Shown here: in pieces, positions 1 through 5,977 of the stretch
Layout: each line of letters opens with the position of its first letter
Position numbering within the stretch: the first letter of the stretch is position 1
Origin: Methylomarinum sp.
GTDB lineage: Bacteria; Pseudomonadota; Gammaproteobacteria; Methylococcales; Methylomonadaceae
Assembly (NCBI GenBank): GCA_013139755.1
Contig: WTAG01000239.1
Location: 1 to 5,977 of the forward strand
Direction: 5' to 3'
DNA: 5,977 nt
Notes under the pieces: generated by a model
What the model was told of the DNA's origin: nothing
Database searches by the model: none
What the model saw: only the letters and a program-made list of their open reading frames with translations
Position numbers and translations under genes: made by a program

Positions 1-336
1 TTTCTCATCTACGCCGGTCAGTACCAGCCGGAAGCAGCCCAGGTCATGGCAAATATCGAAGCCCCCCAGTACCTTGCTGTCGTAGGGAAGCCCAGCACGT
101 TCCAGACCGAGGATGGTACGATCCTGACATCGGTCAGGCCCGAGAGCATACATATCGTGGATGCACCAACCAGGGACCGCTGGGTAGTGGAAACCACACA
201 GCGTACACTTGAGCGTGTCAAGGACCTGAATAGCGATAACCCTGATGCAGTGCGTGCAAAAGAGCATTACAACACCGATGCATCGATATACAGGCAGATG
301 GCACTGGCTGCTCTGGAAAGCCTGAAGACAGAATAA
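1..336 (+). CDS. RPA-associated OB-fold protein, archaeal type (COG3390-like), 3' part only
   Basis: The reading frame is open from base 1 to a TAA at 334-336, so this is the last 111 codons of a gene that begins outside the window; the ATG at 46 is an internal Met, since the frame upstream already encodes conserved-looking sequence (FLIYAGQYQPEAA). The pattern YAGQYQPEAA, then VAVVGKP-like (LAVVGKPSTF), SVRPESI, and TRDRWVVETTQRTLERV is what I recall from archaeal proteins encoded beside replication protein A (single-stranded DNA binding protein) in Euryarchaeota. They carry an N-terminal OB fold, which would lie upstream here, and act with RPA in replication and repair. The family assignment is from memory of the motif pattern. 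Codon use (AGG Arg three times, ATA Ile) and GC of about 54% differ sharply from all downstream genes. The tail after DLNSDNPDA is hydrophilic and helical, with no membrane segment or signal peptide. Confidence 0.78.
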   Translation, partial: FLIYAGQYQPEAAQVMANIEAPQYLAVVGKPSTFQTEDGTILTSVRPESIHIVDAPTRDRWVVETTQRTLERVKDLNSDNPDAVRAKEHYNTDASIYRQMALAALESLKTE

Positions 337-337
337 C

Positions 338-375
338 TTTTTTTAATGGGGTCATCTGACCCCCTTTCCTTTTTT
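338..375 (+). terminator. Probable terminator after the archaeal-type gene
   Basis: Directly after the stop codon there is a run of seven T (338-344), then a perfect inverted repeat GGGGTCA/TGACCCC (348-354 and 357-363; in RNA the innermost pair opens to give a 6-bp stem with a 4-nt loop), then a pyrimidine-rich tract ending in six T (370-375). A T run is the known archaeal termination signal, and the hairpin plus T tract would also work as a bacterial intrinsic terminator. Structure is seen; function is inferred. Confidence 0.65.
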
Positions 376-377
376 AT

Positions 378-404
378 AGTATATCAAGTATAACTTGATG
401 TACT
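378..404. repeat. 12-bp inverted repeat with 3-nt loop
   Basis: Arms 378-389 and 393-404 pair along 12 positions with a single T-G wobble (382/400) and an ATA loop at 390-392. It is AT-rich and follows the terminator hairpin by 14 bases. It could be a second terminator, an operator-like palindrome or the end of a mobile element; nothing in the sequence decides between these. Confidence 0.6.
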
Positions 405-408
405 CAAG

Positions 409-433
409 AAAATCCGACCGAAGGGAGGATTTT
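409..433. repeat. Third hairpin: AAAATCC/GGATTTT stem with inner CC/GG
   Basis: Arms 409-415 and 427-433 are perfect complements. Inside, CC (418-419) can pair with GG (423-424) around a GAA loop, leaving GA opposite GA (416-417 and 425-426), which could form tandem sheared G-A pairs. The stem has A residues on its 5' side and a T-rich 3' flank (TTTTGTTCTCT), so it could be a bidirectional intrinsic terminator. It may also be a structured transposon end; no transposase is nearby. Confidence 0.5.
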
Positions 434-521
434 GTTCTCTACTATTCTGCATAATACGTGCACACCCATGAACAGTAGATACAGACATAGTCAAAACGAA
501 GAAAGATGAATTGATTTAAAA

Positions 522-527
522 TATAAT
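522..527 (+). promoter_or_regulatory. Possible -10 element for sufS
   Basis: A perfect TATAAT lies 47 bases before the sufS ATG, which would give a leader of roughly 40 nt. No good -35 hexamer sits 16-18 bp upstream (A-rich sequence). An alternative is TTGATT (511-516) with GATAAT (536-541), but its spacing of 19 bp is poor. In such AT-rich DNA a chance match is plausible. Confidence 0.3.
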
Positions 528-574
528 ACGCCATTGATAATAAAGCAACTTATTCCAGAATAACCCAATAAAAC

Positions 575-1798
575 ATGACAACATTTCCCATAGAAAAAAT
601 TCGTGCAGATTTTCCTATATTAAAAGAAAAAATCCGTAACAAACCCTTAGTTTATTTGGATAATGCCGCGACTTGCCAAAAACCTCAGGCAGTGATTGAT
701 AGTATTTCTCATTTATATATGCATGAATATGCCAATGTTCATCGTGGCGTGCATACTTTGAGTGTTAAAGCGACGGACCGTTATGAAGGGGCAAGAGAGA
801 AAGTTAAAAATTTTATTAATGCCAGCAGCACCAAAGAAATCATCTTTGTTAGAGGCGCGACAGAAGCCATTAACTTAGTCGCTCAGACTTATGGTAAAGC
901 CAATATCAAAAAAGGTGATGAGATATTAATCACTGCAATGGAACATCATTCAAATATTGTTCCTTGGCAAATGCTGTGTGAAGAAACAGGTGCGATACTA
1001 AAAGTCGCACCGATTAATCTACAGGGTGAGCTTATCTTTGATGAGTTTGAAAAATTGATCAGTGATAAAACCAAGCTGGTTTCCGTGGTTCATATGTCTA
1101 ATGCTTTAGGCACAATAAACCCGGTTAAAAAGATTATTGCTGCTGCTAAAGCAAAAAATATCCCTGTTTTTTTAGATGGCGCGCAAGCTGTTCCTCACAT
1201 GTCAGTTGATGTGCAAGCATTGGATTGTGATTTTTATGCATTTTCTGGACATAAGCTTTATGCCCCATCAGGTATTGGTGTGTTATATGGTAAACAAGCC
1301 TTGTTAGAAGCCATGCCTCCGTATCAAGGCGGTGGCGATATGATACGTAAAGTAACTTTCGAAGAGACTGAATATAATGCCTTACCCTATAAATTTGAAG
1401 CCGGTACACCCAGTATCGCAGATGTAGTGGGTTTAGGTGCTGCAATTGATTATCTAACAGAAGTTGGTATGGATAATATTGCGGCTTATGAAGCTGAATT
1501 ATTAGATTACGCGACTGAAAAAGCCCAGAAAATAGAAGGGTTGCGAATTATTGGGGAAGCCAAAGATAAAGGCGCGATTCTTTCGTTTGTGCTTGATAAA
1601 ATTCATCCGCATGATATTGGTACTATGTTGGATAGCTTAGGTATTGCTGTCAGAGCGGGACATCATTGTGCCATGCCTGTAATGGACTTTTTTGAAGTGC
1701 CCGCCACGGCAAGAGCTTCTTTTGCAATGTATAATACCAAAGAAGAAATTGATGTATTAATGAACGGAATAGAGCAATTGATAGAGGTGTTCGGCTAA
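575..1798 (+). CDS. sufS: Cysteine desulfurase SufS (group II, PLP-dependent)
   Basis: SufS takes sulfur from L-cysteine, releasing alanine, and holds it as a persulfide for Fe-S cluster assembly in the cytosol. The 407-residue length matches the family (E. coli 406). Visible landmarks are the N-terminal LVYLDNAAT stretch (25-33), EHH with the PLP-stacking His (H124), LDGAQ (D201, Q204) contacting the cofactor, SGHK with the PLP-binding Lys227, the active-site loop RAGHHCAMP with persulfide Cys365, and Arg380 for substrate carboxylate binding. All key residues are present. The ATG at 575 is the only reasonable start: an in-frame TAA lies at 569-571 and the protein begins at the usual place. 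No Shine-Dalgarno sequence is visible. The stop overlaps the next start by one base (TAATG), so translation is probably coupled to sufU. In most suf operons sufB, sufC and sufD precede this gene; here they are missing and the upstream 238 bp do not encode the end of SufD in any frame. Confidence 0.97.
   Translation: MTTFPIEKIRADFPILKEKIRNKPLVYLDNAATCQKPQAVIDSISHLYMHEYANVHRGVHTLSVKATDRYEGAREKVKNFINASSTKEIIFVRGATEAINLVAQTYGKANIKKGDEILITAMEHHSNIVPWQMLCEETGAILKVAPINLQGELIFDEFEKLISDKTKLVSVVHMSNALGTINPVKKIIAAAKAKNIPVFLDGAQAVPHMSVDVQALDCDFYAFSGHKLYAPSGIGVLYGKQALLEAMPPYQGGGDMIRKVTFEETEYNALPYKFEAGTPSIADVVGLGAAIDYLTEVGMDNIAAYEAELLDYATEKAQKIEGLRIIGEAKDKGAILSFVLDKIHPHDIGTMLDSLGIAVRAGHHCAMPVMDFFEVPATARASFAMYNTKEEIDVLMNGIEQLIEVFG
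1784..1789 (+). promoter_or_regulatory. Ribosome binding site of sufU inside sufS
   Basis: GAGGTG lies within the last codons of sufS, 8 nt before the ATG at 1798. It is the clearest Shine-Dalgarno sequence in the window and, with the TAATG overlap, supports the chosen sufU start and translational coupling. Confidence 0.65.
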
Positions 1799-2250
1799 TG
1801 TTTGATGATTTAAGGGATTTGTACCAGGAAGTGATTTTTGACCATAACAGAAATCCACGTAATTTTAGAGTCATGGAAGATGCTGATCGCAAAGTAGAAG
1901 GCTTTAATCCTTTGTGCGGTGATAGATTAACTTTGTTTTTGAAGATGAATGGTGATGAAATTACCGATGCCAGTTTTCAAGGTTCAGGTTGTGCTATTTC
2001 TACCGCTTCAGTCTCGTTAATGACTGAAATTATAAAAGGTAAAACAGAAGCGGAAGCTGAAGCATTATTTAAGCAGTTTCATGAAATGACTACGGGTAAA
2101 GAGGAAGAGGTTAATCTAGAAGCCATTGGTAAATTAGCGGTTTTAGCGGGCGTACGTGAATATCCAGCACGAGTGAAATGTGCAACTCTGGCCTGGCATA
2201 CTTTAGATGCGGCTTTGAAGAATGAAGAGAGTTCTATTTCGACTGAATAG
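1798..2250 (+). CDS. sufU: SufU-type Fe-S assembly sulfur-transfer/scaffold protein
   Basis: A 150-residue member of the IscU/SufU fold. It has the family opening LYQEVIFDHNRNPRN (8-22), NPLCGD with Cys40 and Asp42, GSGCAIS with Cys65, and the C-terminal VREYPARVKCATLAWHTL block with Cys128. These three Cys plus Asp42 are the ligands that bind zinc in Bacillus SufU. The additional segment of about 20 residues between Cys65 and Cys128 (around 88-110) is the mark of SufU rather than IscU. Known role: SufU accepts sulfur from the SufS persulfide Cys by zinc-ligand swapping, replacing SufE; a scaffold role has also been proposed. Its position directly after sufS, with overlapping stop and start, fits this partnership. 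E. coli uses SufE instead, so this operon follows the SufS-SufU layout. The last ten residues (NEESSISTE) are a polar tail. Confidence 0.93.
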   Translation: MFDDLRDLYQEVIFDHNRNPRNFRVMEDADRKVEGFNPLCGDRLTLFLKMNGDEITDASFQGSGCAISTASVSLMTEIIKGKTEAEAEALFKQFHEMTTGKEEEVNLEAIGKLAVLAGVREYPARVKCATLAWHTLDAALKNEESSISTE

Positions 2251-2267
2251 GTATTTTGTTTTATAAA

Positions 2268-3053
2268 ATGACAATAAAACAATCGCAACATAAATACTCA
2301 GGAAAACTAGCCGTTCTTTATCAAGGTTTAGGTGATTTAGAACAGTTTAGAGAACTCGCTGAACGGCTCAATGTACCGTTGTTAGAGTCCGCCAATAAAA
2401 AAACAGCTGAAGATTTTTTCTTAACCTGGCGTGATGGCTGTTTAAAGCTGTTGGATAAAGAGCTATTAAAAAAAGGCGGATTAACAGTCGATATTGAGCC
2501 GCGTCCCGGAGAGCAACGCTCATGGCCAGCGCCTAAAAACGGTGCATTAGCTCAAGCTTTAGGGCGCAAAACTCAAACAATTATTGATGCCACTACAGGG
2601 TGGGGGCAAGATAGCCTGCATATTTTTCGGATGGGTTATGATTTGCGCTGCATAGAGCGTTCACCTGTAATGATAGCGTTATTGGGTGATGCCTTTAAGC
2701 GTTTGTCTGAGGTTGATTGGGTTAAAAATTTAGATGTTAAAATGCCTGATCTACTGGCGGGCAATGCCATTGATGTTTTGGCAAATCTAGAAGATAAGCC
2801 TGAATGTATCTATATAGACCCTATGTTCCCCCCCAAGCGTAAAAAATCTGCTTTACCAAAAAAATCAATGATGATATTGCGTGATTTATTGGGTGATGAT
2901 GAAGATAAGGAACAACTTTTTGCCGCTGCATTTGAGGTTGCCACTAAACGCGTGGTGGTAAAAAGTCCCGATTATGCCGAGCCGATAGCTGGAAAACCCA
3001 GTGAAAGTTTTAGTGGTAAGTTGCTACGTTACGATGTTTATTTAAAGAGTTAA
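2268..3053 (+). CDS. rsmJ: 16S rRNA (guanine1516-N2)-methyltransferase RsmJ
   Basis: RsmJ is a SAM-dependent methyltransferase that modifies G1516 of 16S rRNA in the small subunit. Positions here count from the upstream TTG at 2256; subtract 4 for the chosen start. The SAM-binding motif I is IIDATTGWGQDSL (109-121), followed by the acidic ERSP (134-137) that ends strand 2, the catalytic-type IYIDPMFPPK (185-194) with KKSALPKK, and ATKRVVVKSPDYAEP (229-243). All are close to E. coli RsmJ (YhiQ). The N-terminal third is more divergent, with PRPGEQRSWPAPKNGALAQALG in the place of the usual glycine-rich segment before motif I. I prefer the ATG at 2268 (261 residues); the in-frame TTG at 2256 would add only four residues, and neither has a good ribosome binding site. 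It lies 17 bp after sufU and 2 bp before the Rieske gene, so it is probably cotranscribed with the Fe-S genes although it has no known role in cluster assembly. Confidence 0.92.
   Translation: MTIKQSQHKYSGKLAVLYQGLGDLEQFRELAERLNVPLLESANKKTAEDFFLTWRDGCLKLLDKELLKKGGLTVDIEPRPGEQRSWPAPKNGALAQALGRKTQTIIDATTGWGQDSLHIFRMGYDLRCIERSPVMIALLGDAFKRLSEVDWVKNLDVKMPDLLAGNAIDVLANLEDKPECIYIDPMFPPKRKKSALPKKSMMILRDLLGDDEDKEQLFAAAFEVATKRVVVKSPDYAEPIAGKPSESFSGKLLRYDVYLKS
3045..3049 (+). promoter_or_regulatory. Ribosome binding site of the Rieske gene
   Basis: AAGAG at the end of rsmJ lies 6 nt before the ATG at 3056, supporting that start. The match is modest. Confidence 0.4.
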
Positions 3054-3055
3054 AA

Positions 3056-3376
3056 ATGACTGACTGGATTGATGTGTGTGCAGAAAATGCATTGGCAGAT
3101 CGTGAAAATGTAATTGTTGATGTCGATGGAACAGATGTCGCTATTTTTAAAATAGAGGGACAGTTTTATGCCATTGAAGATGTATGTACCCATGATGGTG
3201 CAGAAATAGCCAGTGGCGAGCTAGATGGCGATCAAATTATCTGTCCTCGGCATGGCGCGCGGTTTTGTGTAAAAACCGGCGCAGTAAAATGTGCTCCCGC
3301 TTATGAAAATGTGGATACCTTTCCTGTACGCGTGTTAGAGAGTCGTCTACAAGTTAGAGATGCGCGTTGGGATTAA
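3056..3376 (+). CDS. Rieske [2Fe-2S] ferredoxin (non-heme oxygenase ferredoxin-subunit type)
   Basis: A 106-residue soluble protein with both Rieske boxes: CTHDGAEIA (Cys44, His46) and CPRHGARF (Cys63, His66). These two Cys and two His bind the [2Fe-2S] cluster. The second box lacks the Cys that forms the disulfide in cytochrome bc1 Rieske proteins, which matches the ferredoxin type such as HcaC or BphF. There is no signal peptide or membrane helix, so it is cytosolic. Two further cysteines, Cys71 and Cys79, follow the second box. It starts 2 bp after rsmJ and is the last gene of the sufS-led cluster. Small Rieske proteins are known in suf operons of other bacteria (for example between sufD and sufC in actinobacteria), so an electron-transfer role in Fe-S assembly is a fair inference. 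No oxygenase gene is present beside it, so the name 'oxygenase subunit' given by databases would be misleading. Confidence 0.93.
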   Translation: MTDWIDVCAENALADRENVIVDVDGTDVAIFKIEGQFYAIEDVCTHDGAEIASGELDGDQIICPRHGARFCVKTGAVKCAPAYENVDTFPVRVLESRLQVRDARWD

Positions 3377-3395
3377 TCAGTTGGCCTAATATAAT
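3367..3395 (+). promoter_or_regulatory. Sigma70-type promoter for prfB (distal)
   Basis: TTGGGA (3367-3372) and a perfect TATAAT (3390-3395) are separated by 17 bp. The -35 box matches 4 of 6 consensus positions. It overlaps the end of the Rieske gene (stop at 3374-3376). Transcription would start near 3402, giving a leader of about 130 nt before prfB. Confidence 0.5.
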
Positions 3396-3463
3396 GTAGA
3401 GCGGACTGAAGTCTTCTTTACAAAGGCAAGTTGTTAAATATAAACCAAGCAAAACACCTGCTC

Positions 3464-3472
3464 TGTTATAAT
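3464..3472 (+). promoter_or_regulatory. Extended -10 promoter for prfB (proximal)
   Basis: TGTTATAAT is a perfect extended -10 (TGn plus TATAAT). No convincing -35 lies 17 bp upstream, but extended -10 promoters do not require one. The start would fall near 3479, with a leader of about 50 nt that contains the hairpin at 3490-3511. Confidence 0.5.
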
Positions 3473-3489
3473 CCTTCTTTAAAATTTTA

Positions 3490-3511
3490 AGAAGCTAAAG
3501 CCTTAGCTTTT
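3490..3511 (+). repeat. Hairpin in the prfB leader
   Basis: AAGCTAA (3492-3498) and TTAGCTT (3503-3509) are perfect complements around an AGCC loop; a G-U and an A-U pair extend the stem to 3490-3511. It ends 19 nt before the prfB ATG. The following sequence is only weakly T-rich, so it is not a typical terminator. It may be an mRNA structure near the ribosome loading site or a weak terminator for the Fe-S cluster. Confidence 0.5.
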
Positions 3512-3530
3512 AAGTCGATAAAAATTATTC

Positions 3531-4628
3531 ATGCAAGAAATCAACCCGATAAAAAACACAATTCTCGATCTGCGTAATAGAGGAAGTGCACTTAAAGATT
3601 ATCTGGACTTTGACATCAAAAGTGAGCGTCTAGTTGAGGTTTTAAGAGAACTGGAAGTCCCTGAGGTCTGGAATGACCCAGCACGAGCGCAAGCTTTAGG
3701 AAAAGAACGCGGACAGCTAGAGACGATTGTTAACACCATTAATGGTTTGGAGCAGGGTTTAGAAGACGCTGAAGAACTGTTGGAAATGGCAGTAGAAGAA
3801 TCGGATGAAGAAACAGTTGAAACCGTTGTTGATGATTTACAGCAGTTTGAGGAAAAAGTAGCTGAACTGGAATTCAGACGCATGTTCTCTGGTGAGATGG
3901 ATGCAAATAATGCTTTCTTAGATATACAGTCTGGTTCGGGTGGCACAGAAGCACAGGATTGGGCGTCAATGATAGAAAGGATGTATCTGCGTTGGGGTGA
4001 AGCCAAAGGCTTTAAAGTTGAATTACTTGAAGAGTCACAAGGCGAGGTTGCCGGAATTAAAAGTGCCACCATTAAATTTGAAGGTGAATATGCTTACGGT
4101 TGGTTAAGAACTGAAACCGGCGTACATCGTTTAGTTAGAAAATCACCTTTTGATTCTGGTAGCAGACGACACACTTCATTTGCATCTGTTTTTGTTAACC
4201 CAGAAATTGATGACGATATTGATATAGAAATTAATCCTGCTGATTTACGTGTGGATACATATCGTGCCAGTGGCGCGGGTGGACAGCATGTTAACAAAAC
4301 TGAGTCTGCGATTCGTATTACCCATGAGCCATCAGGGATTGTGGTGCAATGTCAAAATGACCGGTCTCAACATAAAAACCGCGATACAGCGATGAAGCAG
4401 TTGAAGGGTAAGTTATATGAATTAGAGCTATCAAAGCGTGCAGAATCTGCGCAGGCTTTGGAAGATACTAAATCGGATATTGGCTGGGGCAGCCAGATTC
4501 GGTCTTATGTACTCGATCAATCAAGAATTAAAGATTTAAGAACCAATGTGGAAACAGGTAATACTCAAGCAGTGTTAGACGGTGATTTAGATCAATTTAT
4601 TGAAGCAAGTCTGAAGAGTGGCTTGTAA
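3531..4628 (+). CDS. prfB: Peptide chain release factor 2 (RF2), without frameshift site
   Basis: RF2 recognises UGA and UAA stop codons on the ribosome and triggers peptide release. At 365 residues it has the same length as E. coli RF2. The order is an N-terminal helical domain (about 1-115, acidic in 78-115), [10 protein letters not shown] (113-122), [13 protein letters not shown] (135-147), the anticodon-like SPF tripeptide (205-207) in VRKSPFDSG, and the catalytic GGQ (250-252) in [14 protein letters not shown]. Residue 246 is Ala, as in most RF2 proteins, not the Thr of E. coli K-12. The frame is continuous: codons 24-26 read TAT CTG GAC, exactly where E. coli has CTT TGA C, so the autoregulatory +1 shift is absent, as is the nearby AGGGGG stimulator. 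The start at 3531 gives MQEINPIKN, aligned with the E. coli start; no clear ribosome binding site is seen. lysS follows after 115 bp, as in the conserved prfB-lysS arrangement. Confidence 0.97.
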
Positions 4629-4640
4629 TATTCTTAAAAA

Positions 4641-4709
4641 ATGCCAGTACGCTATCGCTAGGCAACTGCTCCTGCGTTACTCTACTACACGCCATTCATG
4701 GCGTTATAA
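4641..4709. repeat. Palindrome-rich spacer, candidate dispersed repeat
   Basis: The prfB-lysS spacer holds several inverted repeats: TGCC (4642-4645) with GGCA (4661-4664); AGTACGC (4646-4652) with GCGTTACT (4674-4681, one bulged T); and ACGCCAT (4689-4695) with ATGGCGT (4698-4704), two bases apart. CGCT is also repeated at 4650-4659. It is richer in GC than the flanking leader. The look is that of a short REP/MITE-like element; copy number cannot be judged from one window. No T run follows, so it is not an obvious terminator. Confidence 0.45.
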
Positions 4710-4736
4710 CTCAACCTACGATTAACAACGTTATAA
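4702..4736 (+). repeat. Direct repeat CGTTATAA (two copies)
   Basis: Identical 8-mers at 4702-4709 and 4729-4736 start 27 bp apart, the second ending 7 bp before the lysS ATG. They could flank an inserted segment, be regulator half-sites, or be chance matches in AT-rich DNA. Confidence 0.35.
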
Positions 4737-4743
4737 AATCAAC

Positions 4744-5977
4744 ATGTCAGAAAACCAACAAGACGAACAAGAACAAGTCACCCAACGCCGTACCAAATTA
4801 ACAGCATTGCGTGAAAATGGTATCGCTTTCCCAACTGATTTTCGCCGTAATGTGATTAGTGGTGAGTTATTAGCTGAATATGGTGAAAAAACTAAGGAAG
4901 AGTTAGAGGAACAGCCGGTTCGAGTTAAAGTAGCTGGCCGTATCATGACTCGTAGGGTTATGGGTAAAGCCAGTTTTTGCCATATTCAAGACATGTCAGG
5001 AAAATTACAGCTTTATGTCACACGCGATACCTTGCCTGAAGGATTTTATAACGAACAATTCAAAAAATGGGATATAGGCGATATTGTTGGTGCAGAAGGT
5101 GAGTTGTTTAAAACTAAAGTAGGTGAATTGAGTGTCAGAGTTGATGATATTCGTTTATTGACTAAAGCTTTGCGTCCACTACCTGAAAAATTTCATGGTG
5201 TGGCTGACCAAGAAATCAAATACAGACAGCGTTATCTTGATTTGATTATGAGTGACGATTCACGTAAAACGTTTTTGATTCGTTCACAAATCGTCGCTTA
5301 TATCCGTAAATTTTTAGGTGATAAAGACTTCTTAGAAGTTGAAACACCCATGATGCAAGCTATTCCAGGTGGTGCAACAGCACGTCCATTTGAAACCCAT
5401 CATAATGCCTTAGATATGGGATTGTATTTGCGAATTGCCCCAGAATTGTATCTAAAACGCTTGGTTGTTGGTGGTTTTGAACGCGTGTTTGAGATTAACC
5501 GTAACTTCCGTAACGAAGGTTTATCTACTCGTCATAATCCAGAATTCACTATGCTAGAGTTTTACCAGGCTTATGCAGAATATGGTGATTTAATGGACTT
5601 AACGGAAGCCATGTTAAAAGGCATTGCTGAAGAAGTAACGGGCAGTTCTGTAGTTAAATATCAAGATGATGAATATGATTTTGGTAAGCCTTTTGACAGA
5701 ATGACAGTGGTTGAATCAATTTTACATTTCAACCCTGAGTTAACACTAGAAAATATTAATACCCGTGAGGCAGCTGTCAAAGTCGCTGAAGAGTTACATA
5801 TTCCAATTAAAGACGGTTATGGATTAGGTAAAGTTCAGATTGAAATATTTGAGAAAACTGTTGAAAGTCGCTTGATGAATCCTACGTTTATTACAGCTTA
5901 CCCTGTTGAGGTATCACCTTTAGCTCGTAGAAATGATGATGACCCACATGTCACAGATCGTTTTGAGTTCTTTGTTG
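4744..5977 (+). CDS. lysS: Lysyl-tRNA synthetase, class II (3' end outside window)
   Basis: LysRS charges tRNA-Lys with lysine using ATP. The frame from ATG 4744 stays open to the window end (411 codons of about 500). An N-terminal helix with [16 protein letters not shown] (15-30) leads into the anticodon-binding OB fold (about 60-140, with [16 protein letters not shown]). The catalytic domain begins near [19 protein letters not shown] (149-167). Motif 1 is [16 protein letters not shown] (196-211) and motif 2 covers [20 protein letters not shown] (245-264) followed by [13 protein letters not shown]; motif 3, near the C terminus, would be beyond the window. It closely resembles E. coli LysS. 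The start agrees with the family (MSEN, acidic Gln-rich head); no Shine-Dalgarno sequence is visible in the AT-rich leader. It follows prfB on the same strand after 115 bp, and no intrinsic terminator separates them, so readthrough from prfB is likely. Confidence 0.97.

Follow-up and report, generated by a model that had tools for sequence, protein, structure and literature searches.

The locus examined here raises the question of how a gene of archaeal type came to stand upstream of a bacterial sufS. The window, meaning the whole stretch of DNA analysed (5977 bases), is a complete short contig, equal in length to the longest contig given for its SufS entry (P0121), with archaeal DNA at one tip. 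The first-pass annotation had weighed an assembly chimera against a real transfer and had favoured the former. Our analysis indicates that the contig is very probably an artefactual chimera, in which an archaeal end was joined to Methylococcales DNA during assembly or amplification, and that the modest interest of the window lies in a repeat, R, carried by the archaeal piece, not in the join. The features of the window are as follows.

1..336, plus strand: RPA family (DNA-binding) protein, C-terminal 111 of 188 residues; reading frame open at its 5' end and cut by the contig end.
348..363, plus strand: terminator-like hairpin GGGGTCATCTGACCCC with a T-rich run after it (fold and alignment).
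377..439, plus strand: element R, a dispersed two-hairpin repeat of 63 bases (covariance-model match, covariation and comparison of copies).
440..473, plus strand: archaeal DNA flanking trm1 on its 3' side (locus B), oriented towards the trm1 end (matches to loci L081, L082 and L089).
473..474, no strand: junction between archaeal and non-archaeal DNA, placed by the ends of the archaeal matches and uncertain by about 1-2 bases.
474..574, plus strand: AT-rich non-coding stretch before sufS, 27.7% GC, presumed bacterial.
575..1798, plus strand: sufS, cysteine desulfurase, Methylococcales (Pfam and protein search).
1798..2250, plus strand: sufU / NifU_N (PF01592).
2268..3053, plus strand: putative SAM-dependent methyltransferase (PF04445).
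3056..3376, plus strand: Rieske [2Fe-2S] ferredoxin (PF00355).
3531..4628, plus strand: prfB, peptide chain release factor 2, in a continuous frame (reading frame, Pfam and DNA matches).
4744..5977, plus strand: lysS, cut by the contig end (reading frame, Pfam and DNA matches).

The product of the reading frame at 1-336 shares 99% identity with a cluster of 188-residue proteins. Among the best 120 of its 427 relatives, every one that carries an organism name is archaeal, most often annotated as 'RPA family' or 'DNA-binding' protein, and there is no bacterial best match, which bears out the earlier reading of these 111 residues as an archaeal RPA-type protein. Of 534 confirmed genome loci encoding the protein, the 80 that were kept are all archaeal by title. 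The top locus (L001) belongs to the ANME-2 cluster archaeon S7142MS1, with 99% amino acid identity, and its DNA is 96.6% identical to window positions 1-377, in agreement with the suggestion that methane-oxidising archaea were the source. The protein has no match in Pfam, and a phage search with it found none. The GGGGTCATCTGACCCC hairpin and its T-run are largely kept 3' of the RPA gene in the five relatives L001-L005.

Within the archaeal piece, two loci are combined. Positions 1-376 correspond to the RPA locus, which in L001-L005 continues into other DNA, common to all five; in L003 the reading frame 3' of the RPA gene encodes a putative enolase, as read from its translation. In the window, this locus leads into R and then into just 34 bp of flank from the 3' side of a trm1-like gene (named from the translation of its reading frame), and in genomes G003 and G002 this flank sits at another place than the RPA locus. 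The two segments meet within R (377-439): the sequence on its left is RPA-type flank, while R itself is of the trm1-side type, showing no difference from the R of L082 at trm1 and two (at 422 and 431) from that of L003 at the RPA gene. The RPA-R-trm1 end could in principle be real in an unsampled ANME-2 strain, leaving only the archaeal-bacterial join as artificial; recombination between R copies is possible, and G003 carries R at both loci (matches C14 and C28). The same other sequence follows RPA in all five close relatives, however, and the trm1 flank lies elsewhere in relatives and is represented in the window only by its 34 bp, so that we regard an unrearranged archaeal part as decidedly unlikely.

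The organism switch had been placed somewhere within the 238-bp non-coding stretch, and it can now be set at 473/474, with 337-473 still archaeal. Comparison of positions 337-575 with 12 archaeal genomes gave matches in 11, nearly all of those listed being to R. Only four listed matches extend past 450, and all four end at 472 or 473 (G003, 370-472, 96% identity; G002, 370-473, 94%; G005 and G001, 429-473, 89%). The corresponding identities to the window are 96% for locus L081 (370-472), 94% for L082 (370-473) and 89% for L089 (429-473). When aligned, these three loci stay mutually colinear past 473, where the window departs from them; the archaeal DNA is therefore taken to end at 473, give or take 1-2 bases. 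Two signs of a chimera are thus present, namely two sides that closely match different organisms and a breakpoint that is sharp against the native archaeal neighbours (472/473 in the four archaeal matches past 450).

Base composition runs from 54.2% GC (1-336) through 38.0% (337-473) and 27.7% (474-574) to 39.8% (575-5977), and the drop from a GC-rich first gene to a poorer remainder had been noted at first pass. The stretch at 474-574 has stops in every forward frame, and six-frame translation gave no long open frame fit for the end of SufD. It is presumed to go with sufS because its only archaeal match among those listed from the 12 genomes is a single 24-base piece (E 0.008). A gap of 3 bp separates the end of sufD from sufS in Legionella adelaidensis, so the non-coding leader of about 100 bp before the window sufS differs from the arrangement there. 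The missing sufBCD upstream of sufS is consistent with a chimera.

SufS shares 99% identity with P0123, a protein of a Methylococcales bacterium, and the organism names within the 120 listed relatives are all Methylococcales or members thereof, counting Methyloprofundus and Methylococcaceae, which we take to be members of Methylococcales. Plasmid searches with SufS returned distant relatives only (about 63% at most), and no SufS relatives with flanks were found in viral contigs. For prfB-lysS, the best-listed DNA matches, from a plasmid collection only, are gammaproteobacterial at less than 71% identity. The claim that everything from sufS onward is gammaproteobacterial thus holds for sufS and, on these best-listed matches, for prfB-lysS, the other genes being identified by Pfam only. 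A search with positions 474-5977 against 392 genomes from the archaeal phylum, run without a positive control and with at most two candidates scored per genome shown, gave no match at E<=1e-20. The small Rieske ferredoxin gene lies 2 bp 3' of the methyltransferase gene, downstream of sufS-sufU. E. coli prfB carries a programmed frameshift; the window prfB contains CTTTGAC at 3608-3614 (codons 26-28) with its TGA out of frame, and from the sequence the frameshift appears to be absent.

From these observed segments and boundaries we infer that the contig was made by assembly or amplification. About 5.5 kb of chromosome from a Methylococcales bacterium, an aerobic methanotroph, would bear a 473-bp archaeal end of ANME-2 type; coming from the RPA-enolase locus, reads or the assembly path would have run into the dispersed repeat R and come out at the trm1 locus, with a switch to bacterial DNA 34 bp past R. 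An artefact is favoured because two unexpected joins lie less than 100 bases apart, and because a path through a 63-base repeat, followed 34 bases on by a switch of domain, fits either an amplification chimera or the tangled assembly of short reads. The window resembles chimeric metagenome contigs in its abrupt one-base change of organism, its shortness, the foreign piece at its tip and the passage through a repeat, but is unlike them in having two joins, one after the other, within about 100 bases. The chimera proposed at first pass is upheld by archaeal matches that stop at 472/473, by an archaeal part that joins two loci through R, and, within the limits of that search, by the lack of a match to the bacterial part in the archaeal genomes.

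A real transfer would have an ANME-2 fragment integrating upstream of sufS in a co-resident sediment Methylococcales bacterium and displacing sufBCD. ANME-2 archaea and aerobic methanotrophs can co-occur in seep sediments, which counts in favour of such an event, as does a junction in non-coding DNA ahead of an intact sufS. However, the archaeal gene, truncated at the contig end, still shows 99% amino acid and 96.6% nucleotide identity to an ANME-2 MAG, the archaeal piece differs in GC from the rest of the window and is internally rearranged at a repeat, a mobile gene at the join is absent, and the archaeal DNA is confined to one tip of a contig of just 5977 bp. Because it would require two rearrangements, independent of each other and within 100 bases, together with little divergence from present ANME DNA, we consider a transfer highly improbable. 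Given the chimera, we advise splitting the contig at 473/474 and inferring from it no transfer between archaeon and bacterium, the join not being a real feature.

The repeat at which the archaeal piece is rearranged is a genuine non-coding element of 61-62 bp with two hairpins supported by covariation. Its covariance model matches the window with 84.8 bits (E 1.8e-16). The alignment used (A1) comprises 63 R sequences, namely that of the window and 62 distinct near-full-length sequences from 72 profile hits in 61 loci. The hairpins have 12 and 11 pairs, and 90.3% of the 1443 alignment cells are paired, the structure having been named from the same sequences in which it was then counted and the sequence alignment not being fitted to the structure; when the structure is slid along the alignment, pairing drops to 38-47%. 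Double changes occur in 84 cells against 23.9 in shuffles, and in 10 pairs against a shuffled mean of 6.9, a value of 10 being reached in 26 of 500 shuffles. RNAalifold by itself predicts six pairs of hairpin 2, that is, part of the structure only, and the subfamily to which the window's copy belongs breaks two basal pairs of hairpin 2 (31-64 and 34-61). With a consensus of 61-63 nt, R is too short to code; its ends, compared by eye, are not mutually complementary and form no terminal inverted repeats. No Rfam family matches the window above the gathering score, and a search of three R-bearing loci at E<=1 gave one match, far below the gathering score and away from R. An exact-pattern search for R in viral contigs found none. 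The first-pass annotation had taken this region as non-coding spacer.

Covariance-model searches found R in 34 of 185 genomes of the order to which G003 belongs (E<=0.01, 28 candidates scored per genome; single matches in a few genomes), in 14 of the 40 genomes behind the named loci (E<=0.001) and in 5 of 39 in a second set. The genomes of L001-L010 carry 4-50 copies each; four of these are titled ANME-2 and six Methanosarcinales archaeon, which we call ANME-2-like from their RPA proteins. The genome of L011 has three weak copies, and those of L041, L044 and L053 have 14, 36 and 67. The highest counts are at least 128 (L017), 123 (L031), 131 (L037), 137 (L043) and 136 (L045); ANME3 stands in the title of L045 alone, and the R-positive genomes are thus not all shown as ANME. 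In the 40- and 39-genome sets, R was not found in genomes titled Methanosarcina, Methanolobus, Methanococcoides, Methanothrix/Methanosaeta or Methanoperedens, or in haloarchaea.

Both loci represented in the window occur in relatives with and without the repeat. At the RPA locus, R is present in L003 and absent in L001, L002, L004 and L005; at the trm1 locus it is present in L081 and L082 and absent in L089. In six comparisons at these two loci, filled sites are longer than empty ones by 61-62 bp, no target is duplicated, and empty sites already contain the T-run. For flank statistics, 108 profile hits were reduced to 86 distinct full-length copies, and removal of flank-short or repeated ones left 81. 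TTTNT occurs at a fixed position directly upstream in 53 of the 72 solo copies, against a background of 1.0% (518/50,236 positions), and T reaches 86-93% at positions -7, -6, -5 and -3. In copies preceded by another copy the motif, present in 8/9, is carried by the right end of R. Copies recur in head-to-tail arrays with a spacing of 61-62 bp, and several sit at the first bases of contigs. Nearly all (77/81) lie outside open reading frames of at least 90 residues, as called by a simple rule, and among the 71 with two neighbours no orientation is fixed (18 ++, 28 --, 13 -+ and 12 +-).

These features indicate that R is probably a mobile element, one that has inserted directly 3' of T-rich tracts, with no duplicated target, in mostly intergenic DNA of ANME-type Methanosarcinales. 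Alternatively, R could be a structured RNA or a regulatory signal, such as a terminator or 3' UTR element, held in place by selection. Its two covarying hairpins and its siting after T-runs and outside reading frames are compatible with such a role, but clean filled and empty sites, head-to-tail arrays at 61-62 bp, the lack of a fixed orientation to neighbouring genes, and more than 120 copies in some genomes with none found in related genera all speak against it, and we judge this alternative unlikely.

Among known repeat families, the mobile element suggested here is most usefully compared with the palindrome-associated transposable elements (PATEs) of Haloquadratum walsbyi, which are reported to include terminal-only forms of 52 bp and to have ends related to an IS605-type transposon (PMC3119063). 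R is like PATEs in having palindromes near both ends, no terminal inverted repeats, no target duplication, a non-coding length, many copies and an archaeal host, but it differs in its size (61-62 bp), in its ANME-type Methanosarcinales hosts, in hairpins that abut its ends, and in that a search beside the Y1 transposase genes examined revealed no IS200/IS605 element whose ends match. Because ends of the IS605 type were not found at those genes, we term R PATE-like, in shape and insertion, rather than a PATE. Bacterial REP sequences with their TnpA-REP/RAYT transposases, are likewise high-copy extragenic palindromic units (PMC8266576, PMC3733652), but the R consensus has no conserved GTAG or CGTC tag, and the host Y1 transposases examined are IS200-like with unrelated ends. 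A word search of the latter source met archaeal terms in its reference list only (PMC3733652). On this comparison R resembles haloarchaeal PATEs more than bacterial REPs.

By analogy with the proposal for PATEs, the most likely mode of movement of R would be in single-stranded form, with an enzyme acting in trans. Genes for Y1 transposases (PF01797) were detected in 10 of 12 and 23 of 32 genomes examined, including genomes without R, and a match is missing from some genomes with many copies (e.g. G508, with at least 137), although these genomes may be incomplete. Several R-bearing genomes have more than one PF01797 match. A subfamily of IS200-like TnpA with similar ends recurs in R-bearing genomes (L102, L103, L105-L109, L112, L113 and L207-L212). 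Leaving out the Methanoperedens copy L104, the left end of these elements is AATACTTTCA in 12 of the 15 copies viewed, and the right end is a hairpin around GGACTTAAGTCC or GTACATTTGTAC. The idea that R is an end of such an element was rejected, both element ends being unrelated to R by eye. The R model gave three weak or cut-off matches in 28 transposase loci, and no transposase with matching ends; in L102 the match is to the truncated end of an already known copy lying 1.5 kb away. The reading of R as a decayed IS605 was also rejected, TnpB being above the cut-off in just 6 of 24 R-bearing genomes.

No description of R was found in the titles and abstract openings of the literature on archaeal, ANME and Methanosarcina repeats, which included PMC6006769 and few subscription papers. 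R is perhaps, though we put this forward tentatively and as somewhat short of probable, a family of miniature mobile DNA, not described before, in anaerobic methanotrophic archaea, with precise insertion 3' of T-runs, a single-strand mechanism and more than 100 copies per genome, common to ANME-2 and ANME-3 and not found in related methanogen genera. R is long enough to disturb short-read assembly; if mobile, it could serve in typing ANME strains and could lead to a new transposition enzyme in archaea that are important for marine methane oxidation. A variant of R in L165 (about 1000-1116, minus strand) carries about 56 bp of additional sequence, in part palindromic, between its two hairpins.
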